Shown piece after piece: positions 2,953 through 53,000 of a DNA stretch of 64,000 nucleotides. Source of the stretch: Xiphias gladius (Eukaryota > Chordata > Actinopteri > Istiophoriformes > Xiphiidae). Position numbers and translations under genes: made by a program. Every line of letters starts with the position of its first letter. Position 1 is the first letter of the stretch. Location of the stretch: assembly GCF_016859285.1 (NCBI RefSeq), contig NC_053417.1, forward strand, positions 19,150,706 through 19,214,705, in the 5' to 3' direction. The notes beneath the pieces are model-generated. The model did no database searches and was not told where the DNA came from. It saw only the letters and a program-made list of their open reading frames with translations.

Positions 2953-3942
2953 TTGTTCTTCGATTGGTGATACTTAGCATGAGGGACAATGTAAGTTGTT
3001 TGACAGTTATTCTATACTTTTGTGACTCCAGCTTTCTTGTTGCTGTATTAATTCAATTTTACAATATCTTTGATCTAATTCTTATGGCATCTCTGCTTTT
3101 TCTGATGTGTAATCACTATCATTGACTTTGTTGTGTTATGTCCAATACTTTTTTCACAATTGCTTCCATAAAACTTCAAAGATCAACTGCTGTCTTCAGC
3201 CTTTAATGGGAGTCTGTTTAGCTGGCTGCATAGCTGTGCACCAACAGTATAAGCATGGTGAGGGAAGAAGAAAAAAAGCATTGTTTGGTTTAACCTACAC
3301 AGTTTCCTCTTGTTGAGACGTTTTTTTCACTTTTCACAGAGGACATTCATAGCCAAGCACAGGCGTAAATAATAAAATTGATGACGGCTGAATTTAGCTG
3401 CTTTGGTTTTGGAGTCCTGCATTGTAGAACAGATCATTAATGTTACCAGTAACACCTGTGCTTTTTCGATTTTGCTAAGTCAAAATGTCTGCTGTTAAAC
3501 AGGCCTATATCTTTCACTGTGAATTGAACATTTCCAGGCTTTGGTCTGTTCAAACAAACAAACAAACAAAAAAACACAGACATAAAAAAAAACCAAAAAC
3601 AAACATTTCACCCTCTCACCAGAGGATAAAATGAGAACAGTGTCAAACTCAATATACTACTAGTTTCGGTAGTAGTTAAATACTTTCAAACAACAGGCCT
3701 TAGGGGAATACCATGTCAGCCAGTTGATACAATAGAAAAGAATAAAGTCCTCCAGAGGCAGAAAAGTTTTTGTCCTGCACATACACATTAGACTTTGCTG
3801 CACATGTGTGTTTTCCCAGATGGATCCTATTCAATGATGTGTTAGCAAAAAAAATCTACTAAGTCTGCTTACAGCCCGACTGGATTTCAGAATTTATCCT
3901 GTTGAATGTACTGTATGTTCACAGACATAGCCACTGAAAGAA
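2953..3942. other. Intergenic DNA, no gene seen
   Basis: This stretch contains an A-rich tract around 3550-3600 and otherwise unremarkable AT-rich sequence. No splice-flanked coding exon was recognised. Confidence 0.55.
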
Positions 3943-14792: not shown

Positions 14793-15195
14793 AAGCTCGG
14801 CCAAGGAGAGTAGAGATGAGCAATACAAGTTAATCCCAACCAATTCTGAAGGTCATATTCCTTGCAGAGTGTATTTAAACCCATGCAAAACTCATACAAA
14901 ACTTACTACATGTCAAAATAAAGATATCCATCATGTGAACACAGCACCTATTCCATAAGGATTCTATAGGGTATGAAATCCTGGACATTTAACCACATTA
15001 ACCTAGGTCACGTTGTATATTTCATGCCGTACTTTCCCAGGAGCCCTTCAGAAGATGAAGGGACCCTGTGTTATGACTGTTCACTCCCCTGACCGGGGTC
15101 TCCATCCATCTTATCTTTACAGCCTTGGTTGTTATTACAATAGCCATTGGGGACTGGGTCACCTTTACTCTATAATCTGCACAGCAGTGCTTGAG
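14793..15195 (+). repeat. Dispersed about 400-bp repeat, copy 1
   Basis: This segment is repeated in the same orientation at 31676-32083, inside eif2d intron 5. Both begin AAGCT(C/T)GGCC(A/G)AGGAG and share long matching blocks, including CATGCAAAACTCATACAAAA and TTGTATATTTCATGCCGTAC. The right edges diverge after CACAGCAGT. Both copies keep an open frame, but it has no ATG and many replacement differences. I therefore treat the family as non-coding. Confidence 0.8.
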
Positions 15196-15955: not shown

Positions 15956-17699
15956 ATACAGTCACTGTAAAGCTCAGAGAGTTCAAATGCGGCTACATCA
16001 CACACTGTGGCCTGAGATGTTCCCATTATGACCTCTGTGACACAGATCCAACACTTTTTGAAAAATGTATGGCTTTAAAAAGCATTGAATCGCAGGTGTC
16101 CTGGAATGGAATTCATTACTGTTTAGGCTAAGACGTAGGACGTAACCCTGTCCATACCACCGTTTCACCGCTTCAGAAATTTGTTCCTGCTGTGCTGGAT
16201 GGTCAGCAACAGAGGGCGACACAGACTGTGTGTAAGCTACTTCCCCGGCTAATCGCTGTTGATTATTTGCACCTTTTTATTAGAATGATTCATCATTTTA
16301 CATCAGTACTGTGCTCAGTCCTGGGTGTAGGTATAGAGCAGAGTATTATACTTGTCAGTTACGTGTCTCCTTTATTCATATCAAACTATCCGAGGATTTA
16401 GTCATGTTTATTTTTCTGTCTCGTTTTACATCAGCCTCCTGTGAGTTTCTGCCTTGAGGTTTTCACTGTTAAGCCCTCACGACAGCTCACTGAAATTTAA
16501 ATTTGGACACTCATCTGGGTCGACTGTTGTGATTCACAGCAATCATACCCCAGTTAGCACTTAGACACCGTGAGATCTTCAGCTCTCTCTGTGTGAGCCA
16601 CATGAGAAGTTCAAAAGACTGCTAGTGGATTATCAGATGCTATAAAAAAAACGGATGAACAAGATGAATATTTTCTGTAACTATATCTAAATTATTTTGG
16701 TTTTGTAATCCTCTCAGCTGTAAATTGGACTGGCAGTGATGCATGATGCACCTCAGTGATCCTGACGTAAGCACAGAAGAAGCATCACCACACGCCGGTT
16801 ATGCAATCAGCAAGGCTCTTATCTAAATTGAAACTGATGCAAGTGGAGAAAAAAAAAAACACATAAAAACATGATCTAATATTAGACATGCAACAGTCAT
16901 AGAGTGACTCAAAATTGCTTGTCTTCTTGATAGTTTTTAATGCATAGAAAGTTGTTTTAAAATATGGGAGGCAAGTGGCAAAACAATTGCAATAAATTTC
17001 CACATATTTTAAATTACTTCAAAGTTGAATGGTTTTATAGCTAGAAAAAGAATGTCTACAAGCCTACATGAATTGGGAATGGACTGCAGGCTTTACTGTA
17101 ACAGGAAAAGTAAAACAATAATAATCTGCCACAATAAACTGACACCATATACACCAACATCATTTAGTAACAGGCCAGTTACTGCCAAATACAGATTTCA
17201 CAAATGTTTATAAACATCTTTCCTAAAGACTGGCTTACAGCCTTATATAACCTCCGCACCACGTAGTAATCACAGTCATACTTTTGTGCAATGTTGCTGG
17301 CACAGCATCAGTAAACTCAGATATCTCCTCAGTGAATGGCTGTGGGGAGGAGCAGGGACCCCTGCTGTTCGCTGAGCTAAGTAGGGCCAGATCGCTGTGG
17401 GCAGCCTGGGAGGAAGCCAGTACGTGTGAATTATTGGGCTAGATGAACCCCTATGCTGCCAGAAAGATGAAATCCCTTTCAGATGAGCCCTCTATCTCTG
17501 TAGAGAGCAGATAACAGAAACCTGGTTTCCACGGCAACAGGACACCATGTCTAACATAGCAACCAACACAGTTGTCTGAAGGTGTTTTTCTTTCTCTTCG
17601 TTTCTCCATACTTTTTATTTTTTCTGCTCTGTCAGACACACACATCTGCTGCGAAATCCCTGGCAACCTACAAAACAATCGAAAAATTGCATAATTTTA
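15956..17699. other. Intergenic DNA, no gene seen
   Basis: No exon, tandem array or mobile-element end was recognised. Confidence 0.5.
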
Positions 17700-17895
17700 T
17701 AGGAACAGATGGAAAAGAACAGATAGTTAGATGAGAAGATTGATACCATTCTAATGTCAAGTCCAATAATTATGAAGCTAGAGCAGGGAGATAGTGTTCA
17801 CTAATTAACATGTCAGATCTTGTTTGCTTAATTCATACAAAAACAGAAGTGTAAAAACGACAAGCTGTGGTTTTACAGTGGGTTATGTCATTGAT
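17700..17895 (+). repeat. MITE-like repeat family B, copy 2
   Basis: It contains TTAGATGAGAAGATTGATAC, then GTGTTCACTAATTAACATGT and AAGTGTAAAAACGACAAG. These match the order of motifs in the copy at 10949-11800, but the middle part is deleted. Confidence 0.6.
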
Positions 17896-17914
17896 GGATT
17901 ACACAAAACCAATA

Positions 17915-18280
17915 CAAACGGATGCAAAACATCCTCAAAGAGACACAAAATGGCCACAAAGAGATGCAAAACATCTACAAGAGGTAGAGCGGGTCGTCCA
18001 CTAACCAGGAGGTGGGTGGTTTGATCCCTGGCTCCTCCAGTCAACATGTTGAAGTGTCCTTGGGCAGGATACTGAACCCCAGATTATCCCTGACGGCCGT
18101 GACGGCCATTATGTATGAATGTGTGTGGTATTGCAGCGTAAACCACTTTGACTGGTCGATATGACGGAAAAAGGGCTACATATGAGCAGTCTATTTGCCA
18201 TTACAAAGACATGCAAAATGTTCTCAAAAACAACCACAAAGAGACATATAAAATCTACAAAGAGGCACAAAATGACACGG
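17915..18280 (+). mobile_element. tRNA-like SINE inserted in a 20-bp minisatellite
   Basis: The core at about 17985-18150 has a B-box-like GGTTTGATCCC, then GTCCTTGGGCAGGATACTGA and ACCACTTTGACTGGTC. This layout is typical of a common teleost SINE-like repeat. On both sides (about 17920-17980 and 18205-18275) are diverged units of ACAAAGAGACACAAAATGGC. The SINE therefore appears to sit inside an older minisatellite-like repeat. The small open frames here are artefacts. Confidence 0.55.
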
Positions 18281-18439
18281 CTGTGTGGTTTGTGCTTGTT
18301 TTGTATTACTTTCAGTCTGGGTGTCTTGCTTCTAAATAGGAGGGTTGGGGGCCCTTTTAAATGTCTCAGGGGCCCATTGCGTCATAATTGTCCATGGGTA
18401 ATGTGCTCCATTATTTCTTTGCACTGTGTTGGGACTTGC

Positions 18440-18778
18440 ATCAAGCTAACCTAAGCTAAAGGGTACTGGCTCTTGCATCATATTTAATGTGTAGAGGAAT
18501 GAGTTGCCGCCACTTCACCTGCCAACGACAGCTGCTCAAGTAACAAAGGACCAGTTGGAAAAAAACAACAACTCGGCAACTAATTAACTGGAACAATCTT
18601 CTTCAGTCCACCAGAATATTCTTCCAGTTAGTGAGGAAGTGTTGCCGAGTTGTTCTTTATTTGCTTCATATTTAACGGACAGATTCAACAGTGGTATTGA
18701 TCTCGACGTCTTTTCTAACTGACAGCAAGAAAGCAAATAAGCGTATTTCCAAAAATGTCAAACTATTGCTTTAGAAAA
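18440..18778 (-). repeat. MITE-like repeat family B, copy 3, with internal hairpin
   Basis: The right end carries the inverted family B terminus (TTTCCAAAAATGTCAAACTA), and CTAACCTAAGCTAAAGGGTA marks the left part. Between them is an inverted repeat. AACAACTCGGCAAC at about 18568 is answered by GTTGCCGAGTTGTT at about 18641, and TTAACTGGAACAAT is answered by ATTCTTCCAGTTA. The loop is about 20 bases. Confidence 0.55.
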
Positions 18779-19744
18779 GGGGACTTAAAGACGAATGAAC
18801 TCGTATTATGTGAAAAGGGATAATAACCTCAAAACTAACCTTTTGAGACTTTTGAACAAATTTGATTTATCTCACAGAGAAGTGTCAGAGAGTCTCTGCA
18901 GCATCACAGCAGGTGGGACATGAGAAAAGGGAGCTTCTTTTCCTCAAAAGAGCATGCATTGCTTGCATGACAGTGCTTTAACACTTTATATATTGCTCTA
19001 CTCGTCTCCTAGAAATTCTTGACTTCTGAGTCAGGCTCTCTCCAAAGTCAAACCTCAGTGTAAGAGGTTTGGAAAAGTTTTCCAACACCAGACAAACAGA
19101 TGGGGATGGCTTCAGAAAACATGATGTGCACAGATGAGAGGGTCAGAAAAAACACTGTTCAATGACTGGAAAAAGAAGAAAAGTGGAGGTTATTTCTCAA
19201 ATTTAACTGTCAACTGTCAGTGGACTTATATATACTCAATATCCTGTCAGTGGACTTATACTCATACTGCAACTTTATCAGAAGGTGGGCCAGACTTTTT
19301 TTCCTACCATGAATGAGCTACCTCCAAGCACAAAAAAACCTTTCATTAATATTAATGCACCATGTTTAGACTAAACCCTTTCTGTTGTCCTGACTCAGTG
19401 ATTTACTATTTGTTCTCCTTATATTCTTGGAGGTCTTTCCTGACTAATCATTTCATCAAAACCCAAGATATTTCTATCCAACTCTGTGGATTCCTCTGGG
19501 AAACCTTGGGCAATACTGACGCACGTCTGCAGTGTTTTGCATGTGAGTTTATGAAACCAGGTCTGCATTAAAGGATATATGAATAAATTTTCCTCAATTT
19601 TTTTTTTGCATTTCACACACTAATATCCATATTCTCCAACAACTAAACTGGCCATTAAACTTCAGTTTGACAAAACTATAATCCATACTTCTAGGTTGTT
19701 ATGCAATATCTCATAGAAATGCATAAAAGCAAGAAAAGCTAGAA
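18779..19744. other. Intergenic DNA, no gene seen
   Basis: A short local duplication of TGTCAGTGGACTTATA occurs twice within 19212-19262. Nothing else was recognised. Confidence 0.5.
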
Positions 19745-20220
19745 AACATACTGCATAAAAGTTTCAGGCACTTGAAGTGAGGATGCTTCAAGAATAATGT
19801 CCTGAATAGTTTTTATCATTTCACTACATTCAAACCGCAGTAAAGAGAAAAAATTGAAATCAAATCAGTATTTGTTGTGACCACGCTTTGCATTTAAATC
19901 AGCACCAGTTCTCCTGCTTGTGTACAGTTTTTAAGATACTTGGCAGGTAGGTTTGTCCAAGCATCTTGGAGAACTTGCAACAGTTCTTCTGTGGATCTAG
20001 ATTGCTCACCACGGAGACCTTGCTCCAACGCAGCTGAGGCTGTATAATTGCAGCTTCAGTTAAAGTTGAGTCCATCACTTTAAAAACAAAACAAAAACCT
20101 GACAAAACCAAAATTAAGACTCGGAGCAAATTCCGTGAGGAGCCTGAAAGAATTTATCACAGGAGAAATGTAAAAATTCCTTTGGTGTGGTGAATTCACC
20201 AAAGCGAAACACCACACAAA
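19745..20220 (+). mobile_element. Tc1/mariner-type element fragment
   Basis: The sequence includes AAAGTTTCAGGCACTTGAAG, TTGTTGTGACCACGCTTTGC, TGGCAGGTAGGTTTGTCCAA and CATCTTGGAGAACTTGC. This order of motifs matches what I recall from the region upstream of, and antisense to, a fish Tc1-like transposase. The transposase catalytic part is absent, so this is a dead fragment. Confidence 0.5.
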
Positions 20221-20557
20221 ATACTGGGTGTTTGAAATAGATTCTTGTTACTTTTTTTTACTGTATCCATATTTGTTTGTGTTTAATCCAGTGTTTTTCA
20301 TAAATAGGAAGTAAACCACTTATCAGGACATTCAGTTATCCCAGGACTTAACAATGCCGGTTTACATGACCTGAAAGTGGCTGGTTAAAGAATAGGACAG
20401 GGGGAACACTTGCCAAGACCTTATCAAAAACAGCTTGGAGCCCCTGTCTCAGGCCCCTGATCCTCAACTATTTCAGTGGAGCTGCTCAGCTTCCTGGTGT
20501 GAACAAAAATATGGGTCAAAAACTGTTGTATGTACTGCTACATTGTCGTCTCTCCAG

Positions 20558-23500
20558 CTGCCAGAATGGGACCAACGCCTGCTACCAACTTATCTTCAGT
20601 ACAGTTCATGGCCTCTACAAGGATCTCTATGCTTACAGAGACAGCATGACTGATGTCATTGTCCAGTATCTCATCACTGAACAAAAAGGTGCACTTTTGT
20701 GTGCACAGGGCAACAGGAAATTGAGTTTATGATAGAGGACCTATTTTAATTCCACTCCAAATAATAGGTTGTATATGTCTTGGAGCATCACAGTTAGTGA
20801 CCAAGGTTACAGAGGGAGTACTTTAGTAATTATACTTGAAAAGTAACTTTAATAGGGATTTCTTATAATGTTCCTGTTGTCACATCAGTCAAATCAACAG
20901 TCACCCAATTATTGTTTTGTAAGGGCAGGCAGCCTACTGTTTTTCAAATAGCGGATATGTAATTTTTGTGGGAAAGTCCAGCCCATTGTTGTCAAGTATT
21001 TTATTTACACATAAACGGAAGACCGTCAAGATAGTTTGTAGAGAGAATTTGACAGCAGTCATTCGACAGGATGTACTGGCTTAGATAATTAAACCTTCCA
21101 CGCCCCCCCTTCACATAGCCACTTTTTCTTCCATTTCCTTCTTTCCCCAGTGAGGATAGAGTGCCGTGAGCTGGTGAAGAAGATCGCCATCTACAGAAAC
21201 CGTCTTGCCATCCAGCTGCCAGAGAAGATCCTCATCTATGAGCTCTATTCAGATGACTCCTCAGACATGCACTACCGCATCAAGGAGAAAATTTGCAGGA
21301 GGTTTGAATGAAACTTGCTGGTGGTCTGCTCCCAGCATATCATCCTGTGTCAGGTCAGGAAGAAGAGTACCTTGGCCATAAAAAAAAAAACCCCCACATA
21401 ATTCACAGATTGCGCAAGAGGCTGTAGAAACATATGAGCACATGACGGAGGCAGACTGAGTGAGTGTTCAGCCATTCACTACTAGCCCAAACAGTGCAGA
21501 GAAAATTGATAATATCATGGAATTGCTGGTTTCCCAGATGTTTCTGCCTACTTTGCAAAAGGCCTCAGCTGTGCATGTGCATGCTCTGTCTCTTTCCCCT
21601 TCTCAACCTTCTTCAAAGTAGATGAAGTGAGACAGTTGAATGAAAGGGAAGGAGCAGTCTGTTAAACCAGTGGGTGTCTCTTGGGGTTCTTCTCTGTTTT
21701 TTGTCCCTATGTGTTTGACAGATGCTCGTAGGGAGGAGGAGCAGCCATAACACAGAGGTTATTTCCTTTTAAATCTGTCTGTGTGTGACAGAGGTGCTTC
21801 AGATCTCTCTCTAACACAAATGCTCGTGTTTCATGGCTCAGACAGCTTTTGGGCCCTATAAATGGGCTGTGCATTGCCTAAGCAGCTTTCTGGCATTGAA
21901 CCATACTTGGTCGTTTTTAACAGAACAATATCCTAAGATTTCTCAGACATTTAAAAGTGTTTTTTAAATAATGTAAACGGTGAGATTAACAAACTGTGAA
22001 CTAATGAAAACAGAATGATCTGGTCATACTGAACCAGTCATTGCTTCATGTGTAATATGTAATTGTGGTCTCACCTTTTCCATTCTGCTCTGGTGCAGGA
22101 GAAGAGGCTCCAGTGCCTGTCCTTCACCAGTGTCAGGGAAAAAGAATGGGTGATGGAGTCCCTGATTCGCTACATCAAAGTGATCGGTGGTCCGCCAGGC
22201 AGAGAGGGCCTACTAGTAGGGTTAAAGAATGGAGCTGTGAGTATTTCAAGAAAATTCATTCCCATATTAAGTAATCTTAGAAATTTATCTCATGCTCAGA
22301 AGCCAATGGTCCAGGAATTTGTCCATTTTTCTTCTTGAAGAAGATGAGATTTATTGTATGTAGATGGGACTGCAAGTCATAAAATACATCCCTTGTAGAG
22401 TTTACATTTATTATAATTAAAGTAAAGTAAAGTATATGGATTTAACTAGCATTAGCACCGATGTTCTATTCTGATCGTGTTCTGCTGGTCACTGTTTTTG
22501 TGATGTAGATCCTGAAGATATTTGTTGACAACCCGTTTCCCATCACACTGCTGAAGCTGTCAACGTCAGTGCGCTGCCTGGACATGAGCGCCTCCCGCAA
22601 TAAACTGGCTGTGGTGGATGAGCACAGCACTCTCCTGGTCTATGACATCAATAGTAAAGAACTGCTTTTTCAGGTCAGCTGGCAGTGGAGAGAGTAAAGT
22701 GTATGGCTGAGGAAGCTAATATGGCTGATTTTAAAATACATTTCAGAGTTGCAGTGGAGTGGAATAAAATAGAAATATGTGTGTGTGTATAATTATTTGC
22801 CTTAAGCACAGGTACATATTTTACTCATGTACTCCTGCCTGGTCTATGTTCCACAATCACCTCTAGACCATTTCCCCCACTGCCCACCTTTACCCGCCTC
22901 CTTTTCTTTTGCTCTCACTGTAGGAGCCTAATGCTAACAGCGTGGCCTAGAACACCTCTCTGGCAACGGGTACCTTAACATCAAGGCTAGCAACTTCCCT
23001 GTACACCAGCAGAAGATGCAAGGCTTTATGGTCGGCTACAATGGCTCTAAGATCTTCTGTCTCCACGTCTATTGCATGTCAGCTGTGGAGGTGCCTCAGG
23101 TGTGTAGCATGTTGTCAGCTTGTCCTATCGTGAAGGCAATGACAGCGTTCCATGTGGTCATAATATAGATTTGAGAGCACGTCTATGCCAGTGGCCGGTG
23201 TATCTTAAATATCATGGTACTTGCTTGTACTACAAAGAAAATAACTTAATTGGACTGCTTTGCTATTAGTTACTGAGACAAGTATGTGGTGAAGGTATGA
23301 TTTTGTTGGTGGTCCTCTTCCTACTTATTAATTAATTTGCTGCTGTTTTTACACTGTTAATTTTGTAATGACTTTTAACGGTGGTATTTTTGCTCGGTCC
23401 AGTCAGCACCCATGTACCAGTACCTGGAGAGGAAGATGTTTAAGGAGGCCTATCAGATCGCCCGTCTGGGTGTGACAGACAGTGACTGGAGGGATTTAGC

Positions 23501-24796
23501 CACAGAAGCCCTGGAGGGACTTGACTTTGACACTGCCAAGAAGGCCAGTCAGACACACACAAATTGTTGTGATCGAGACCAGTTTTATCAGCCTTTTCAG
23601 TTTTTACTGCTTTTATCTTCACAGGACAATACAAAATTACAAGTAGCATTAACTCCTCCAAATGTGGTGATAGTACCTTGCCTGTACCTTAGCCTTATTC
23701 TTGGGCTTCATGTCAGCTGAAAAGACTCACCATCAATTAATAGTATGTACTTTACCCAGGCAGCCAAATATATACACTAGCGATGTCCATATTGTAACTT
23801 TTGAGGTAGGGTTTTCAAGAAGCTGGTTTCTACAAAAGATAACACAAAACCTGAAATTTTAAGAGGCTATCTTCTAAACTATTTCTTTTACTTTCCCATT
23901 TTCAGGCCTTCATTAGAATCGGAGAACTGCGCTATCTGGACCTCATCAATAGCATTGAGGTAATAGTAACTCTTCAGAAAAAGAAAAAAATTCTTCAATA
24001 TAGTATAATGCCAAGTATTATCTATATCTATTCTGGCCAGAGCGGACATCATCAAAGTTGGACAAGGCTGAGGGGAAACAAGGGCCATCACAGTTATTGT
24101 CATCATGCATTTAATTGCTAGGGCTTTTCTCTGGGCTCTACTTCAAAACTTTAAACAAGGGAGGAACTTATATCCTTACTGACCTACTTCGGTCCGGTCC
24201 ACACATATGTGCAAGCAAACATTTACATGCAGTTGAGCTCATGCACATTCCTTCGAAATATTGCATGCAGAGCAGAGGGAAGTCTTTGAACTTGGCTAGT
24301 GCCAGGAAAATGTTTCTGCTCTGTTCCCTTTTGAAAATGGTGACATACATCATTGAAAGTGTGCTTTCTTTCAGTGACAGGAAATAAATGTTTCCTGCTT
24401 TCTATAGAAATATTGTTTTTTCTCTAATTTTTATTATGACTGACAGTGAAAGAGTTTAGTGTGGGTTAATCAATGAAACTCATTGCACCAAGCAAACCAA
24501 TAGTTTTTAGTCCCTTCCGCGTTGTTTTACTCATTGTGTGGGTGAACACGCATGTATAACTGGTGTGTGTGTGTATACATGCACGAGTGTTTATCTCTGC
24601 ATCTATGCCACTGTTTGTGTTGACTGATTTGCAGGAGAGGAAGAAGCGGGGTGAGAACGACAATGAGCTGTTCCTGGCAGACGTCTTTGCCTACCAGGGG
24701 AAATTCCATGAGGCAGCCAAACTTTACAAACGTACTGTCCATGAATCTAGAGCCCTGAGCATGTACACTGACCTGCGCATGTTTGAGTATGCCAAG
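20558..24796 (+). pseudogene. ift122: IFT122 internal fragment, unprocessed pseudogene
   Basis: Eight exons encode the middle of IFT122, the WD-repeat/TPR subunit of the IFT-A complex that acts in retrograde ciliary transport. Exons are 20558-20688, 21151-21353, 22099-22236, 22509-22673, 22924-23099, 23403-23543, 23906-23959 and 24635-24796. Telltale stretches are [71 protein letters not shown] and [20 protein letters not shown]. They correspond to about a quarter of the roughly 1,200-residue protein. Lesions are an in-frame TGA at 21309-21311 in place of a conserved Cys codon, TAG at 22948-22950 in place of Trp, a 22-base deletion at about 22957, and a GC donor after 23543. No exons for the N-terminal WD40 part or the C-terminal part were found on either side. 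Introns are kept, so it arose by genomic duplication and not by retroposition. The fragment and the gene family are secure; the duplication history is inferred. Confidence 0.9.
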
Positions 24797-26460
<1,664 letters not shown>

Positions 26461-26466
26461 TTTATT
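26461..26466 (-). promoter_or_regulatory. eif2d: Polyadenylation signal for eif2d
   Basis: TTTATT on the plus strand is AATAAA on the minus strand. It lies about 95 bases past the eif2d stop codon, a sensible distance for a short 3' UTR. Confidence 0.55.
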
Positions 26467-26558
26467 ACATGAAAGGTGAACAGTTTGTTGTTGTTATGTT
26501 TACATACAGTAAAGCAGCTTTAAAAGAAAGTAAACAGCTTGTATAGCAGGTAGAAATG

Positions 26559-29500
26559 CTACTTCTTCTTGCCACCTTTCAGAGCTTTGTCTAGTCCTTG
26601 GATGTACTTGCGAGGAATTTGATAGTGATCTAAAATTTAAATAAAAGATTAGACAAACTTAATTTCTTGGTACAAATAAAGCAATTGAGAGAAACAATTG
26701 AGAGAAATTGTGAGATATTTTAAGTATTATTAAGTTTCAAACCTAAAAGTAAATTGCCAGCTTGGTGAATCTGGTTGCCTTGGATCTGGACCAGGACTTT
26801 ATCCTTGGCCCCAGGGATGGGATGTAAGACGGAGCTGGCCTGGACTCTGTACTGCAAAGCAGTGGCCACAACAGCAGGATCCAAACCGTACACTTCCAGG
26901 TTTTTTATTAGAGTCACCTACAGAATACCACATGGAAACTGTTATACCAATAAATCAGCCAGGCTGATAGAAAAACTGATAATTTTTGGGAACCCTTAAC
27001 TGTTAATCTCATGGCATCGTTAGGTCAAAATTTAAATTTTGCAATTTAAACATGCTAAACTAAGATGGCAAAAATAGTCAACATTATATCTGCTGAACAA
27101 ACAGCATGTTAGCATTGTCACCGTGAGTATGTTAGCATGCTACAGTTATCATTTAGCTCAAAGCACAGCTGTTTCTAAATACAGCCTCAGAGTATTTAGC
27201 ATGGAAGTTGACTGTAAACTAGTGAATATAAAAAGACTTTTGAAAAAATCTACAATGGTCTATAGCTGGGAAAATGAAAGAGATTGTAGCTTAAGTTGTC
27301 ACCTTTTTATTGGAGCCTCGAGAAGCCACAGAGATCTCTATGGGCTCAATGTGGCCCTTCTTTATTATGGGTGTTTGTCCAGGGAACATAACTTGATAGC
27401 ATTCTTGCATTCTTCCCAACGTCCTGTGAAAATGAGGTTTAATTGGTTAATCAGCACCAAATGTTGGATGATAGAGAGATGGACACTGGCAGAGGATAGG
27501 AGATACTGTTGAATTGTGTCTACTAATTTATCTACTGTACATGTCCGTCTAACATAGCAATGTATAGCATGTGATTATCAAAAACACATGTAAACTAAAA
27601 TTGTACTTATACTTCTTTCATTCACATTCAGTGAGATAATGTGAAGGTCTGCACTTGAAATGTTATTGCTACCTTCAAAGGAGATGATAACCAAGCCATG
27701 CAATCTTCATTTACCCAAAGTAATAAGGACTGCCCTGAAAAAGTCTTTGCTACATCACAAATATATATATGTCTAGCGTTTCTGAAAAGACACGAACACT
27801 GGACCTTTCTTCACCTTGCTCTGTTGTCTTCGCTATCAACAATCTCTCCTGGCCAAGCAAATCACAGCAAATCTTGTGGTCTCCATGTGGTATCTTCGTA
27901 GCCCACAATGTGTATTCACATGTTTTGAGGAGGTGCATGTCAGCCTCAGCAGCACCTCCAGTGGAGCTACAGACCTTCTGCAACACCCTGATGCAGACGT
28001 ATAAATCTGGCTTAAAAATAGACACTCCCACTTCACTCATCAAAGTCATCAGAAATCCTTCAAATAGATGACGACACTGTTAATTCTTAAAAACTCCCGG
28101 GATTGGAAAAAGAAATGCAAGGGAGGTCTTTGCTTTTTTCCGGCCAGGGCCACAGATTATATCACTGCTGCTCAGACTTAAAAGCAGCAGTGATACTGTT
28201 GTTTACATATCAGATCTGGATTAAAGGTGGCATTAGGGTGATTATTTTATCCCATGCTCCTCCCACAGTGATGATGCTGACTGCCTCCATCTGCCGGAAT
28301 TAGTAAATACAGTATGTTCGCTGCTGACTCAGGCTGGTATAATGGATGATGGTATTCAAGAACTGAATGGAATGGGTAATGACAGCATTTTTGTTCAATA
28401 TTGTACATGGTCCCTTAAAGAACAAAATGAGATATAAAATAATAAAATAAGTCTTAACCTGCTGAAGAGGTCATCCCACTTGAGAGACTCTACCTCCTGG
28501 TACTCTGATTTCTCCAGCAAGCAGTCACATAGAGTCGGGTTTATGGTCACGTAACTGTCAGAGGTGAGAAAAGCTTATTAAGGTACTTGTAATGGGGGGG
28601 GGGTCACATCATACAGTTGATGGCTCTCAACATGTCAACAGGAAACGTGCTGTCCAGGACCATGACAGATTTTATTTAATTTCTCACGTCAGTCATTACC
28701 AATTTGTTTCACATCAGATGATGCACAAATTTTCATGAGAAACATGAGATGTCTCCTCAGTTTCTGAGTCACATTTAAGCATTTTAGCCAGTTATAAAAA
28801 CATCATATGTCCTGAGGTCAGCTCTATATTTGTTCAGTGGCCACTAAGCCTGTCCTTTAACTACTGCATCCAGTTATGAATAAACTGGCAGGGTGGTTAT
28901 ATTTAAACCATCACTGAGCTCAGTGTCTTCAGTGTTGTGTTGATTATTCCAAGAATGGAGATTCCTCTTCCTCTTGTGTCAGCTGACAGACACAGAGTTT
29001 GATTGTCAGATGCAAATTCATTAAATCATTCTTAGAACATCCTCATAGACAAACACAAAATACAGCAAAACCATGAGCTCTACCAAACTCTGTTGGTGGA
29101 GGTAACACTGACATTATGTGCTGATATCTGTTGTTTTCAGATGCACTCTATGTCGTCAACACACCGATTTCCCTTAAGAGAATTTAAGCACCTACTTACT
29201 TTTTATTATTTTCAACCACCAGTTCATTCTTCTTCACATACTCCATGACAATACTTCTCACTTCAGCAGGCTGCAGGATTGTTCCTTTCCTGCAGGGAAC
29301 CAAAGCACAAATGTATCAAGGTATCTTCAGTTTGAGTTTCCATATATTTTTGTAATGCTACTGAATTCAATTCAATTCAATTCAATTCAATTCAATTTTA
29401 TTTATATAGTGCCAAATCATAGGTTTATCTCAGGGCAATTTTAATATAGAGTAGGTCGACAGTGTCGCAACATCATGCTCATGCTCATATACACGCCTTA

Positions 29501-32500
29501 AACTCATATTTAAAACGGTCAGAGAAACTTTCCAACTTCAGCAGATGAATGTGCAAACAAACTGTGCACAGAGAAGGTCAAACATCCAAGAGAAGTGGTG
29601 TTGTGCATGCTGGCTCACTGTCACACTGTCATTTCTTAGTGGGATTCTTGAATAAAACTGAACTACTGTTAAGGTTATTAGTAACATCTGCGCTTTTCCT
29701 ACCGCGACATGTCAGAATGACTGTACACTACTTTCTATCAGCTCTCCCCCAAATGCAGAGCGTCATATTTTATAGATGCGGAAAATAACAGTCTCATGAC
29801 ACTGTGGTTGTCAGTAATGACACAAAATGATTCTGCAGCATGAAAAATTTCAATTTAGTGCCTAGAGAGAAAACTATTGAGTGACTATTATAGAGTATAT
29901 GGAGTAGTAAATGAGTGAGCAAAGGACTGATTTGGAAAAAGTTTTTACGATAAAGAATTGTGTGGGAATATTGTCTTATTCCCTCGCAGGAAGCTCAGAG
30001 GTCGAGGTCAGCTACAGCGCAGCCCTCCCGGAGCTGGTAGGGATTTTCAGTCTCATTCAAGTGAACTTGAAACTTGTGGATGTTTGCTTACACGCAGGAT
30101 TACACTCTCCCTTCTATGTCCCCCCACTGTCAGAAGGGGAAGCAGAAGCATGCACTCACACACACCCCACCTCTTGTTTGCATCCAGAAAGAGAGGCTCC
30201 AGCCGAGCAGACACCGAGTACAGATATGTGATCTCAGGAGGATGGTACGGAGTTTCTCCTTCCTGAACAGGAGCTGCTTCACCATCCGTTTCCTTAGGAA
30301 CGTTGAACAAACGCAGTCTATAAAGTGTTAGAGTAATGCAACAGAAAAAAAAGAGGGCCTTGTCAGTGTGGATGTGGACAGGTTGTGAGTTTGAATCTCA
30401 ACCAAGAACTACCTTAAGGTTAGGCAGGGCTTGACTCACTCTGGATTTTTCCAGTCGACCTCCACAATGCTCTCCACACCCTTGGCCAGTTCTTTCACTC
30501 GCACAAGGTTGTGCTGCTGCTGCATGGCCTGAAGAAACTTGGACAGCTGTTTGGGGAAAAACAGTGAATAGATGCCTAGTGGAGGAGTTATAAATTAGTC
30601 TATTTATATGTGTAAATGTCACATTCTGGTCATCTGCTATACCTTTTTATAGCTGGATTTCTTGATATCAAGTTGCTTTCCACTTGGGCTGAAAAAATAC
30701 AACGTAATTTTCAGTACTAAATTTAATTCCTCCCCAGCACTTCTTAAAAGATGAACTGTACTTTACCAGCAGGAGAACATGTGGTTGCGGAGAAATGTAC
30801 TGGTCAGTAGAGGGAGCTCTGATTTCTTCACCTTGCTCTTAAGGGCATGCAGAAAACACTGCACGAGTAGGGCATCCATTACCTCTGTGAAATCAGGGTA
30901 CGGTATCTGCGTCAAAAACTTCTCTCTCTCAACAGGCTCATGTTTTGCCACATGCGAAAATATTATTCTTCACTTGAATTAACAAAACAGAACCATGGTC
31001 ACATTGCCCCATAAACCATTTAGTAGTGAATATGTGAAAAATTGATTTCAAGCTGAGATAACAGGACTTATGAAGCTGTGGATAAATCTTATTAAAAGAA
31101 CATTTTGCATAACTGTGGTGGTAAGTTCTTCAAAGTGAGATGTACAATCTGAAATAATTCCCTTTTAAATTAAATTTTAACAAACGTGATGGGAGATGTG
31201 ACTAAATCTGGTACCTTGTGGCGTTTTCTGCTCGTCCTGGTTTTTATCGTCTTCCTCATTGCCCTTTTCACCCTTCTCTTCCTCCTGCTCAGCTAGACTC
31301 AGCTCCTCAATACGAGAAAAGACTGGATCTGTGACCGTTTCCCCAGGAATCTGCTCCTCCTCCACACACTTCTCAACCTCCTCCTTCTCTTCGTCCTCCT
31401 CATTATCCTCATATTCTTCTCCATTCATCCCATGTCCTTCGCTATCTGCATCCGATAAAGTAGGAGGACCTGACTTATCCCCAAAAGCCCTAAAAAAAAA
31501 AAAGGATATAAAAAACCACATGTGCAACGTTTACTCGACTCGACTTAGAGAATGATTGAACATTAAAAAAAAAGAAAAGAAATGGGTGAGTGATTGTGAT
31601 AAATGTGATGTGAATCTTCTGAGCTGGTTAACCCGTGATGGAAGACCCAGATGTTTTAAGCAGAAGCGTTTCTTGAAGCTTGGCCGAGGAGAATAGAGAT
31701 GAGCAATACAAGTTAATGCCACCCAATTCTGAAGGTCATCTTCTTTGCAGAGCATATTTAAACCCATGCAAAACTCATACAAAACTTGCTACATGTCAAA
31801 ATAAGGATATTCTTCATGGGACCACAGCAGCTATTCATGCATGTGTGAAGGTTCTATTAGGTACAAAATCCTAAACATTCAACCACATTAACCTAGCTCA
31901 CATTGTATATTTCATGCCGTACTTTCCCAGGGGCCCTTCAGAAGCTGAAGGACCCCTCTGTTATGACTGTTCACTCCCATGACCGGAGTCTCGGTCCTTC
32001 GTATCTTTACAACCTTGGTTGTTATTACAATGGCCATTGGGGACTGGGTCAGCTTTGCTCTATCAACTTCACAGCAGTCCCTGAGATGGACACAGGAGTG
32101 GTGCGCTTAGGGCCTACTTATACTTTCCACCTGAAGAAGGAAAAATATGCTTATGAGTGAGGCTAAACTGTCCGGGGGCAACTGTCCTAAGGGTAGCTCA
32201 CCTGGAAGGTTACACAAGCCATATTACTGTCTCATCTTGATTTACTGGCAAGAATAGATAAAATGCATAATCATCACCAATGGCTGAGGGCTGAAGACAG
32301 GTAATAGCAATGGCGATGTAACTGCATTGTTTGCTGTATCTATTGCAAGTGCAAACTTGTTGATTAATTTGGATCCCTGGAAGGCCACAACTTATGGGGA
32401 TCTCAATAATCAATAGACAACAGCAATATCACTCTCACATCTCTCTGGTAAATATACAGCTACAGCCCCTAGATGGTTAGCTTAGCTTAGCCCAAAGACT

Positions 32501-37076: not shown

Positions 37077-45243
<8,167 letters not shown>

Positions 45244-45636: not shown

Positions 45637-47030
45637 CAGTGGCACGAAAAGGTTTGAGCCCCCCTGGTCAAATTTTCTGTTACTGTAAATAGATAATCGA
45701 GTAAATGATGAACTGATTTCCCAAAGGCATAAAGTTAAATATGACACATTTCTTTAATATTTTAAGCAGAATTACTTTTTTATTTCCATCTTTTACAGTT
45801 TCAAAATAACAAAAAAGGAAAAGGGCCCGAAGCAAAAGTTTGGGCACCCTGCATGGTCGGTAGTTAGTAACACCCTGTTTGGCAAATATCACAGCTTGTA
45901 AACACTTTTTGTAGCAGCTAAGAGTCTTTCAGTTCTTGTTTAAAAGGATTTTCACCCATTCTTCCTTGCAGAAGGCTTCTAGCTCTGTGAGACTCTTGGG
46001 CCGTCTTGCATGCACTGCTCTTTTGAGATCTATCTACAAATTTTTGATGTTTAGGTTGGGGACCGTGAGGGCCTTGGCAAAACCATCAGCTTGTGCTTCT
46101 TGAGGTAGTCCATTGTGGACTTTGAGGTGTTCTTAGGATCATTATCCTGTTGTACAATCCATCCTCTTTTCATCTTCCGTTTTTTATAGACGGGGTGATG
46201 TCTGCTCCCAGAAGTTGCTGGTATATAATTGAATCCATTCTTCCCACTACCAGTGAAATGTTCCCCGTTCCCACTGGCTGCAACACAAGCATAAAGCATG
46301 ATCAATCCACCCCTGTGCTTAACAGTTGGAGAGTTGTTCTTTTCATGAAATTCGGCACCCTTTTTTTTGCAAACATACCTTTGCTCATTGCGGCCAAAAA
46401 TTTCATCAGTCCACACATCTTGTTTCCAAAATGCATCAGGCTTGTTTAGATGATTCTTTGCAAACTTATGATGCTGAATTATGTGGTGAGGATGCAAGAA
46501 AGGTTTTCTTCCGATAACTCTTCCAGGTGTGGCTGCATAGATGAACAGTGCACCACCTCTCCAGAGTCTGCTAAATCTTCCTGAAGGTCTTTCGCCTATC
46601 AAGAAATCCTACAAGCAGTTCTCTTGGAAAGTTCTCCTGGTCTTCCAAACCTCAACTTGAACCCCACCGTTCCTGTTAACTGCCATTTCTTAATTGCATC
46701 ACGAACTAAAGAAATGGTTACCTGAAAACGCTTAGCTGGCTACTTATAGCCTTCTCCTGGTCTGTGGGCATCAATAATTTTTATTTCCGGAAATGCTAGG
46801 CAGCTGCTTCGAGGAGCCCATGGCTGCTGATTATTGGACAAACTTTTGCATGGTGCTCCTTTCCCTTTTTTTACTGTAAACTTGTACAAAACAAATCAAT
46901 ACACTAATCTTGCTTAAAAATCTGAGAAGAATGATTCCACTTTAGCTTTATGCCTTTTGGAAATCAGTTCATGTTCTGCTCACTTAACTATTTAGACCAC
47001 TGGTGCACAAATGTTTTAATACTTAGTATG
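45637..47030 (-). mobile_element. Decayed Tc1/mariner transposon
   Basis: The left end CAGTGGCACGAAAAGGTTTG follows a TA dinucleotide. GAACTGATTTCCCAAAGGCA at about 45711 is matched, inverted, by TGCCTTTTGGAAATCAGTTC at about 46950, so long terminal inverted repeats flank the element. On the minus strand 46051-46602 keeps the C-terminal half of a Tc1-like DDE transposase. WTDEIFGRNEQRYVCKK and IVQQDNDPKNTSKSTMDYL are visible. The expected SPDLNPIE-type third-acid motif is destroyed: the frame reads RSPT then stop at about 46052, as though a base were lost. The N-terminal part is broken by several stops. The element cannot encode an active transposase. Confidence 0.8.
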
Positions 47031-49858: not shown

Positions 49859-50073
49859 TAGGTATACTGTACCTACTTTATTTTTAAAAAGTGGAGCAAA
49901 GAGAATATATCTGTCTTAAATTGCTAGATCAGTGTACTACAGTGTTAGTTGCAAAATATTTCATATTATCAGTGATTACAGTTTTGGGATTGGGTAATCA
50001 GGAAATATCCTAAATTTGTCATCATATTGACTTTAAATTACATTTTTCTTCCTTGGGTTTTCCATTAGTGATC

Positions 50074-53000
50074 ATGCGGACAGTGGAGCTCATCCTCCTA
50101 ATGGGACTAGTGGATCTGAGCATCGGCCAGCCTTACAGTCAGATCCAATGGCTTTCCATTCTGCGAGGGCGGCGGCGGCACGCCGGCTTGCAGGCCGAAG
50201 ACGTGGACTGCCCCCTGGAGTGCGACTGCCCCTCAGCCTTCCCCACAGCTATGTACTGTCACAACCGCAACCTTCAGCATGTTCCCTACGTCCCCTCACA
50301 TATGAAGTATGTCTACCTGCAGCGTAACCAGATCACAGGCATCCAGGACGGCGTGTTTGACAATGCTACCAACTTGGTCTGGGTTGTGTTGTTTCACAAC
50401 CAGCTCAACTCAGACAAGATTGGCAAGAACATCTTCATCAAGCTCAAGAACCTGGACCGGCTTTTCTTGGATCACAATGAGCTTACCCGTGTGCCTCCTA
50501 ACTTGCCCAAGTCTATCAGAGACCTACGGCTTGGTCACAATAAGATCTCAAAAATCCTCCCCAACTCATTCGAGATGATGGCCAACCTCAGTACCCTTCA
50601 GCTCCAGGAAAATGTCATAGAGGATGTTGGAGGTGTGTTCAAGGGACTGAAGTCCCTGACCATGCTGGATATGAGGAAAAACAAGCTGAGAAAAATTCCT
50701 GTCAACCTCCCTGAGAGCCTGCAGCAGCTCTATCTGGAGTTTAATAACATAGAGAATGTGCCAGTGGGGTTTTTCACCACGTATCCCAAGCTGCAGTTTG
50801 TTCGTTTGGCTCATAACAAGCTGACAGATAAAGGACTTCCATCTAGTGTCTTCAACATCAGCACACTGGTTGAGCTTGACCTGTCCTTTAATAAACTGGA
50901 GAAGATCCCTGTGGTCAGTAGAAACCTGGAGAACCTTTATTTGCAAGCCAATAAAATCAAAGGTAGGGACACATCTCTGTTACTTTTTTTACATACTCTG
51001 TTTAGATATTTGACGCTATGACATCTAAAAGTAGTTGTGAGCCAAAACCCATTGGAAATACACTATACCGCTAATAACTGTAATAACTGTAATAACTGTA
51101 GTGTTTTTAACTCTTATTTTTAACAATCAAAAATAATATCAAATATTTTGAAAGCCAAAATCTTTTTACAGTGAAACCGGTCTTAACCTGTGTAAAGGTT
51201 TTTTTTTTGTGATTGAGGTATTGCAGAACAAAATTGTAGACCAAGCACATAGGAAGCTCCACCCTGGGAACAGGAGAAGAGACAACAACCAATCTAGGCT
51301 AATAACAAACACGAATAAAGATAAACATTCATGTAAATATGAATGGACCATAGTCAAGCCAGCCAATAAGAATTACAAACAGGTGGACAAAATTTTTCCA
51401 ATTGCGCCCCTCATCCACACCCACTCCAACACCACCAGCCACCCACCCTTAGCTCTAATACCAATACAGTCAGTTTCAGAATAACCTCTTGGCCTTTAGC
51501 CTTGTAGAGACACATACAGTATCCATGACCATACACAAGGTTTTAGAAATACAGAGAACCAAAAAATGAGAAGAAGACTTCGGAGGGCAAAAATTGGATA
51601 ACAATACCTTTTAAAATATGTCAGTGGGGATTATAGAAATGTGTATCAAACAGTACATAAAAGTTAGCAAAATTATCTGATGAGCAAGATTTTTAGGTGA
51701 GGAGAAAATAGTGTTCCAGACTGATGGCTAATTCCAATCAATGGTGATAGACTGAAAATCTTTTTCCCAATTTATTTTTTTACTGGAAGTGGTTTAGTGT
51801 CACAAGAAGAAAGTTTTTTTTTTATAAACCGAGGCTACCAGTTTAGGCCTGGTAGTTATTTGAGCTACTAAGGGTGTTGGGCTAAGAGTGTATCCCAAGG
51901 TACTCAATACTTTTTAAAAGCTGTGTGGAGCTGAAGATAAAAAGAAAAACATGAAAATCCTGGAAGAGACTAGCACTCCTTCAAATCTTGGAAAGAGTGA
52001 AGACCTTTATCATTAAAAATGTCGCCTACCACATGAATGCCTTGTTTAGACCACGGAAAAAAGAAAGGTGTGGACCTAGACAAGAGTGCATTAGTATGTT
52101 ACTCTAGTAACCTTAGATTATGGTTTATACTTGTCTTATATAGTGGCATAAGTATTGATTTTGACCATTTTATTTTCTGACCAGATAAGGAGCCAAACTT
52201 ATGGAGTCCAAGATATACAATAGAACATCATCTGCATAAATGGAAATATGATGAGATGTCCCTTTGATTATGATGGGAGGTATGCCATGATTTTCCCTAA
52301 CTACCTGGGGCTAAGTTATTATCACTTAGTACTGTAGGTTTATTGACTAAGTGGGACACACTATGCTGCTCACTGAGCAATTAACAACATACAAATCTTA
52401 CAAATCTTAAATGGCAGAAATATGGGTTAAAAGTTTAAACTGTTGTGCACGTTTGACCCTCCCAAAACGACCCACTGGATTTGGTAAATGAAGTCGCAGA
52501 ATAAATTTAAGGGACAAAGGAAGTAGTGTTTATATATATAAATACTATTTTGAACTAGAGTGAAGTTCAGACATATAACAGTTCACCCATACTCTTTCCA
52601 GCTGCCTTGTTTTAACAACATCATTTAACTGTATTTGGAACATCCTCCGGCTTCAAACCAGATTTAGTAGATCAAATTTCTAAAACTTACTATTTTTTCT
52701 GTTGTCTCCATTTCTTAAAGTTGGATTTGTGTCTTGTGTCAGTGTCTTGGCTGAGCTTGAAGCAAAGTTGAAAAATTTCAACCATTAGATTACAGCAAAG
52801 GCAGGATTTTCAAATTGTATCAGACTTTGAAATGTCGCCCTTTCCTCTGAAGTAGGGGTTTTCCATAAACACTTTCCCCAGTGGAAGCTCATACACAATA
52901 CAAATAAAAAAAGTTCACAATGAAGAAACACAATAAAAATATATGCAGTAAAGTGTATATTATAAAATAAACTTTATGAAAATAAAAACTACAGAAAAAG

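Follow-up and report, generated by a model that had tools for sequence, protein, structure and literature searches.

Genes and repeats in the window

The window is a 64-kb stretch of genomic DNA (C18:19150706-19214705) that carries part of an ift122 gene on its plus strand. We found that eight consecutive exons (20558-24796) match residues 340-736 of human IFT122 in colinear order with their introns kept, as the initial annotation had claimed, and that these exons have AG acceptors in 8/8 cases and GT donors in 7/8. The fragment is identical to human IFT122 at 323 of 389 readable codons. The identification as IFT122 is not a chance match, since exons C-H, translated and joined, match human IFT122 (PDB chain) with an E value of 5.7e-132. 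The interval 20558-24796, proposed initially as the full extent of the fragment, proved too narrow: homology to a second ift122 locus in the same genome, referred to here as the parent, spans ~20530-25745 and reaches into a ninth exon, with BLAST limits at 20530 and 25741 (Table 1). A tblastn search of the whole 64-kb window with human residues 1-1241 returned no further IFT122 piece better than E 0.8, which agrees with the claim that the other exons are absent, except that the start of the ninth is present at 25729.

Table 1. Features of the ift122 copy, in window coordinates
Feature	Position	Strand	Remarks
Whole duplicated block (ift122 partial pseudogene)	20530..25745	+	counterpart C18:19708773-19713862, minus strand; ends uncertain by ~10 bp
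Exon A (human 340-383)	20558..20688	+	3 + 8 bp of parental acceptor region/first codons missing just upstream
Exon B (human 383-450)	21151..21353	+	in-frame TGA at 21309 (human C436)
Exon C (human 451-496)	22099..22236	+	0 codons different from parent
Exon D (human 497-551)	22509..22673	+	
Exon E (human 552-617)	22924..23099	+	TAG at 22948 (human W560); 22-bp deletion after 22956
Exon F (human 618-664)	23403..23543	+	GC donor common to parent; C638R at 23463
Exon G (human 665-682)	23906..23959	+	
Exon H (human 683-736)	24635..24796	+	G717V at 24737
Exon I remnant, ~15 bp	25729..25745	+	acceptor CAG to CAT (25726-25728), then breakpoint
207 bp in window copy, absent from parent	23627..23833	+	parent has short tandem CTTCACAGGA here
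Low-divergence tract one	22055..23626	+	23/1554 aligned sites differ; 19/934 noncoding (2.0%)
Low-divergence tract two	25213..25608	+	3/396 sites differ (0.8%)

The fragment is convergent to eif2d, whose exons (34421-26580, minus strand) are colinear with residues 1-578 of human eIF2D, except that human residues ~178-259 were unmatched in the window. A mapkapk2-like kinase gene lies on the plus strand (37140-45216), and its exons match human MK2 residues 43-391. Ten chosen open reading frames were compared with Pfam. Four were matched: a leucine-rich-repeat protein, two pieces of eIF2D type and, below the Pfam cut-off, part of a kinase. The remaining six matched nothing. The leucine-rich-repeat protein (50014-51018, plus strand; Pfam LRR_8 and LRRNT) is presumably fibromodulin-like, judged by eye. 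An open reading frame on the minus strand (46054-46608) resembles by eye a decayed Tc1-type transposase and had no Pfam match. Several repeats were also observed. The segment 18559-18662 is 71% identical to its own reverse complement, and the adjoining 18663-18772 matches 42769-42874 at 75%, pointing to a likely palindromic repeat element. The open reading frame translations of 15007-15190 and 31897-32080 are visibly alike and represent an interspersed repeat.

The parental ift122 and the origin of the fragment

Across the genome (690,834,319 bases in 1298 contigs, searched at the DNA level), the segment maps to two places: its own position in the window and C18:19709679-19713823 (minus strand). 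A search of this kind is blind to a distant third ift122. A longer query (17001-27000) extends the parental match to C18:19708773-19713862. The other matches of the longer query, among the best 39 of 4424 first-look candidates that were scored and beyond which further matches may exist, were short and corresponded to a dispersed repeat (window 19749-20009) and a CA repeat. The two ift122 copies thus lie 532,323 bp apart on the same contig in opposite orientation.

We examined 50 kb around the parent (C18:19690001-19740000), which contains colinear counterparts of human residues 15-187 and 248-1240, interrupted by a few short gaps; the parental exon G was seen in the alignment. A candidate start exon (MRAVLAWKETIREQ) is followed by a GT donor, a stop codon follows DEPN, and the 388 codons compared with the fragment contain 0 stops. 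No counterpart was found in the parental stretch for human residues 188-247, which we take to be a segment optional in human isoforms, or for a few shorter parts of the protein. The parent is therefore best described as a complete-looking ift122, its frame having been read in pieces rather than end to end. Upstream of its second exon, a translation at C18 ~19717740-19718000 resembles by eye a Tc1-type transposase.

Just beyond the 3' end of the parent lies an intron-containing rhodopsin gene (C18:19693310-19696318), pieces of which match human rhodopsin 1-332; if the animal is a teleost, this is presumably exo-rhodopsin. A rhodopsin query returned one match only in the window, at E 0.71. One report includes ift122, h1-8 and plxnd1 in the set of genes that flank rhodopsin genes in Xenopus and in ray-finned fishes (PMC10339062). 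The initial annotation's statement that IFT122 does not normally adjoin eif2d in human agrees with this. By that account the parent has the neighbourhood described and therefore sits in the ancestral place, whereas the window copy adjoins eif2d and the mapkapk2-like kinase.

The initial annotation offered two readings, a segmental duplicate of ift122 or a second ift122 from the teleost genome duplication that was eroded to its middle. Pseudogenised ohnologues exist in fishes, and the teleost genome duplication is roughly 300 million years old. An ohnologue of that age would show strongly diverged introns on a paralogous chromosome, whereas the introns of the two copies can be aligned and both lie on one contig, 532 kb apart and inverted. 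Furthermore, noncoding sequence is 91-99% identical by stretch, far too similar for such an age, and the ancestral rhodopsin neighbour, as far as the available text of PMC10339062 describes it, adjoins the parent and not the window copy. Intron identity thus refutes an ohnologous origin, to which we give next to no credence.

Segmental duplications are defined as spanning at least 1 kb with at least 90% identity. The copy spans ~5.2 kb, and 4464 of 4682 aligned sites are identical to the parent, a count that omits gaps, the CA repeat and the 207-bp segment; single BLAST pieces have 87-94% identity. The 218 differences comprise 199 at 3512 noncoding sites and 19 at 1170 coding sites. Introns of fragment and parent align throughout, and seven of them are retained between the eight exons, as expected of an unprocessed and not a processed pseudogene; the view that the fragment was copied as genomic DNA was therefore correct. 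The proposed check, a second and complete ift122 with closely matching introns, led to the complete-looking inverted locus described above. Because the introns align with those of the parent, the fragment is a segmental duplicate rather than an ohnologue, and we are highly confident that it is a truncated, dead one. It is an ordinary unprocessed pseudogene, well explained, whose history is unusually readable. The 207-bp segment likely reflects a deletion in the parent, judging from the short parental tandem at this position.

Similar copies on one contig, both taken from a single assembly, could also arise if an ift122 haplotype had been misplaced during assembly. We consider this very improbable, since the copies differ at 218 of 4682 aligned sites and additionally by indels, neither stretch contains an N, and outside the block only four short repeat-like matches connect the window with the 50 kb around the parent. 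Moreover, stops and a frameshift are confined to the copy that lacks the gene ends.

A 5.1-kb stretch inside the complete gene, comprising an intron end, eight exons and the start of a ninth, was copied as DNA. The copy lies inverted at a distance of 532 kb, in the spacer that follows eif2d, and its sequence, place and orientation are read directly. Target-site duplications were sought at the two junctions, and the longest shared word was 6 bases. The dispersed repeat at 19749-20009 is ~250 bp long, with dozens of copies of 76-80% identity among the matches listed; it stops ~500 bp short of the junction and is unlikely to be causal. At rates of 3-10e-9 per site and year, the 8% noncoding divergence found outside the low-divergence tracts corresponds to roughly 4-14 million years, to be read as a rough scale only. 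Titles and abstract beginnings, mostly from outside subscription journals, reported no ift122 duplicate or pseudogene in fishes. No relatives of exons F-H were confirmed in scans of viral contigs and genome contigs (7 and 58 pattern matches).

Lesions and loss of constraint

The initial annotation described the exons as retaining correct phase, a description that fails on three counts: the C436 of human and parent is replaced by TGA at 21309, the W560 of both by TAG at 22948, and exon E measures 176 bp instead of 198 owing to the 22-bp frameshift deletion. With two stops and a frameshift, the fragment cannot make IFT122. Its edges are damaged as well. Eleven bp (3 + 8) are lost relative to the parent at the 5' edge of exon A, which makes the AG at 20556-20557 a different one from the parental acceptor, and the ninth exon (exon I) has lost its acceptor AG and is cut off after ~15 bp. 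The two stops, the 22-bp deletion, the lost exon I acceptor and the missing ends are all absent from the parent. In contrast, the GC donor after exon F at 23544 is common to the fragment and the apparently functional parent, and so marks a GC-AG intron and not a lesion. An estimate of age from lesions alone (~4% divergence, interval 0.8-11.6%) had counted two stops and a presumed change of the donor from GT to GC. Because the parent has the same GC donor, this estimate was discarded; direct comparison of the two copies replaces it. The gene content of the fragment, which lacks a start, the N-terminal propeller and the C-terminal exons, suggests that it was probably never a working gene.

Over the 388 codons compared, fragment and parent differ at 18, and 12 of these change the residue, stops included. 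At the 12 amino-acid-changing codons the parent agrees with human at 11 and the fragment at 0; the twelfth encodes Q in human, R in the parent and G in the fragment. Across the full set of 388 codons, identity with human is 333 for the parent and 322 for the fragment. Differences between fragment and parent amount to 13 at 914 nonsynonymous sites and 6 at 250 synonymous sites. This substitution pattern shows that the fragment evolves without protein constraint, as expected of a pseudogene. We also compared mismatches to human at positions identical in human IFT122 and the PDB chains 8bda_L and 8hmc_A, which we take to be from Chlamydomonas and Tetrahymena (8/128), with mismatches elsewhere (58/261). 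We rejected this difference as a sign of current constraint; it shows long past constraint and is explained by a recent origin from a constrained parent.

The fragment is convergent to eif2d and lies ~0.8 kb from its last matched exon, an arrangement that would suit a piece co-opted as a noncoding RNA or as an antisense partner of the 3' end of eif2d. Given that protein constraint is absent, we regard such co-option as highly unlikely, and a dead duplicate remains our preferred reading.

Divergence mosaic and comparison with known systems

Divergence between the two copies is distributed unevenly (Table 1). Outside both low-divergence tracts, 177 of 2182 noncoding sites differ (8.1%), made up of 81/1055 left of 22055, 86/994 in 23834-25212 and 10/133 right of 25608. 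The four longest identical runs measure 293, 267, 252 and 234 aligned sites. In 10000 uniform shuffles, the longest run had a mean length of 124 and never reached 293. When near-gap sites were removed, the noncoding counts of the five stretches in order were 65/825, 12/844, 52/837, 2/376 and 8/107. On the same sites, a 500-site scan had a minimum of 3 differences and a 700-site scan a minimum of 8, each reached in 0 of 5000 permutations; the 300-site scan is weak, its minimum of 0 being met also in 1 of 5000 permutations. Constraint acting on the parent alone could reduce divergence to no less than half, because the copy is free of it. Both tracts lie below half the outside rate, with P = 0.0004 (tract one) and 0.00007 (tract two), for tracts chosen after the data had been inspected.

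Tracts of reduced divergence beyond chance are expected of interlocus gene conversion, and the mosaic probably reflects such conversion after the duplication, in a comparison that has no outgroup and with tract borders set after inspection. Exchange of this kind between the inverted copies would have homogenised at least two stretches with the sequence of the live gene. Eight differences lie within 22289-22362, between two identical runs, which suggests more than one conversion event; tract one was probably converted in more than one piece. Transfer from gene to copy is the more likely direction, because the gene is intact, and transfer from copy to gene is possible if it took place before the lesions arose. 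The largest low-divergence tract contains the TAG, the 22-bp deletion and C638R, which by their position are probably younger than the conversion of this tract.

A segmental duplicate could also have acquired a mosaic without any conversion, through local mutation rates, two copying rounds or divergent parental haplotypes. The lack of an outgroup, the post hoc choice of tracts and the variation of mutation rates along chromosomes speak for such an account. However, noncoding divergence falls from ~8% to 0/381 (22363-22916) and rises again, beyond the twofold change that constraint on one copy allows, and the permutation results at 500 and 700 sites oppose it too. A haplotype difference of 8% within a species would be exceptional. 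We therefore judge an origin of the mosaic without conversion to be unlikely and favor gene conversion, to which local mutation-rate differences could add. A further idea, that ift122 keeps exchanging sequence with its dead inverted copy 532 kb away, we consider doubtful.

These results settle an ambiguous annotation at the window locus, where gene finders could wrongly predict a second ift122 or a linkage of ift122 with eif2d. In exons C-F, reads or primers could mix both loci. The pair also shows a gene-conversion signature between inverted copies that lie half a megabase apart. If exchange is ongoing, the pair could refresh the pseudogene and, in the reverse direction, seed broken ift122 alleles; furthermore, recombination between the inverted copies could flip the interval from rhodopsin/ift122 to eif2d.

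Gene-pseudogene pairs that undergo conversion include CYP21A2/CYP21A1P, SBDS/SBDSP1 and GBA1/GBAP1. In these pairs, as in the ift122 pair, a dead relative is similar enough to exchange tracts with a live gene. They lie closer together, whereas the ift122 copies are inverted and 532 kb apart, and the transfer of lesions into the live gene was not seen for ift122.

An internal-exon duplicate of a ciliary gene has a parallel in human HYDIN2, which the accessible parts of one report describe as a 364-kbp duplicate with 79 internal exons of the ciliary gene HYDIN (PMC5345166). HYDIN2 is without the promoter and seven terminal exons and has a lost splice acceptor and a frameshift, and gene conversion of ~2 kbp, with HYDIN as donor and HYDIN2 as recipient, was found in 2 of 2981 people (PMC5345166). 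According to that description, both cases involve duplicated internal exons of a large ciliary gene, missing ends, a lost acceptor, a frameshift and, for ift122 probably, conversion. They differ in that HYDIN2 spans 364 kbp on another chromosome and is transcribed as fusion transcripts (PMC5345166), whereas the ift122 copy spans 5.2 kb on the same contig in inverted orientation. As far as HYDIN2 is described there, the ift122 copy looks like HYDIN2 on a smaller scale.
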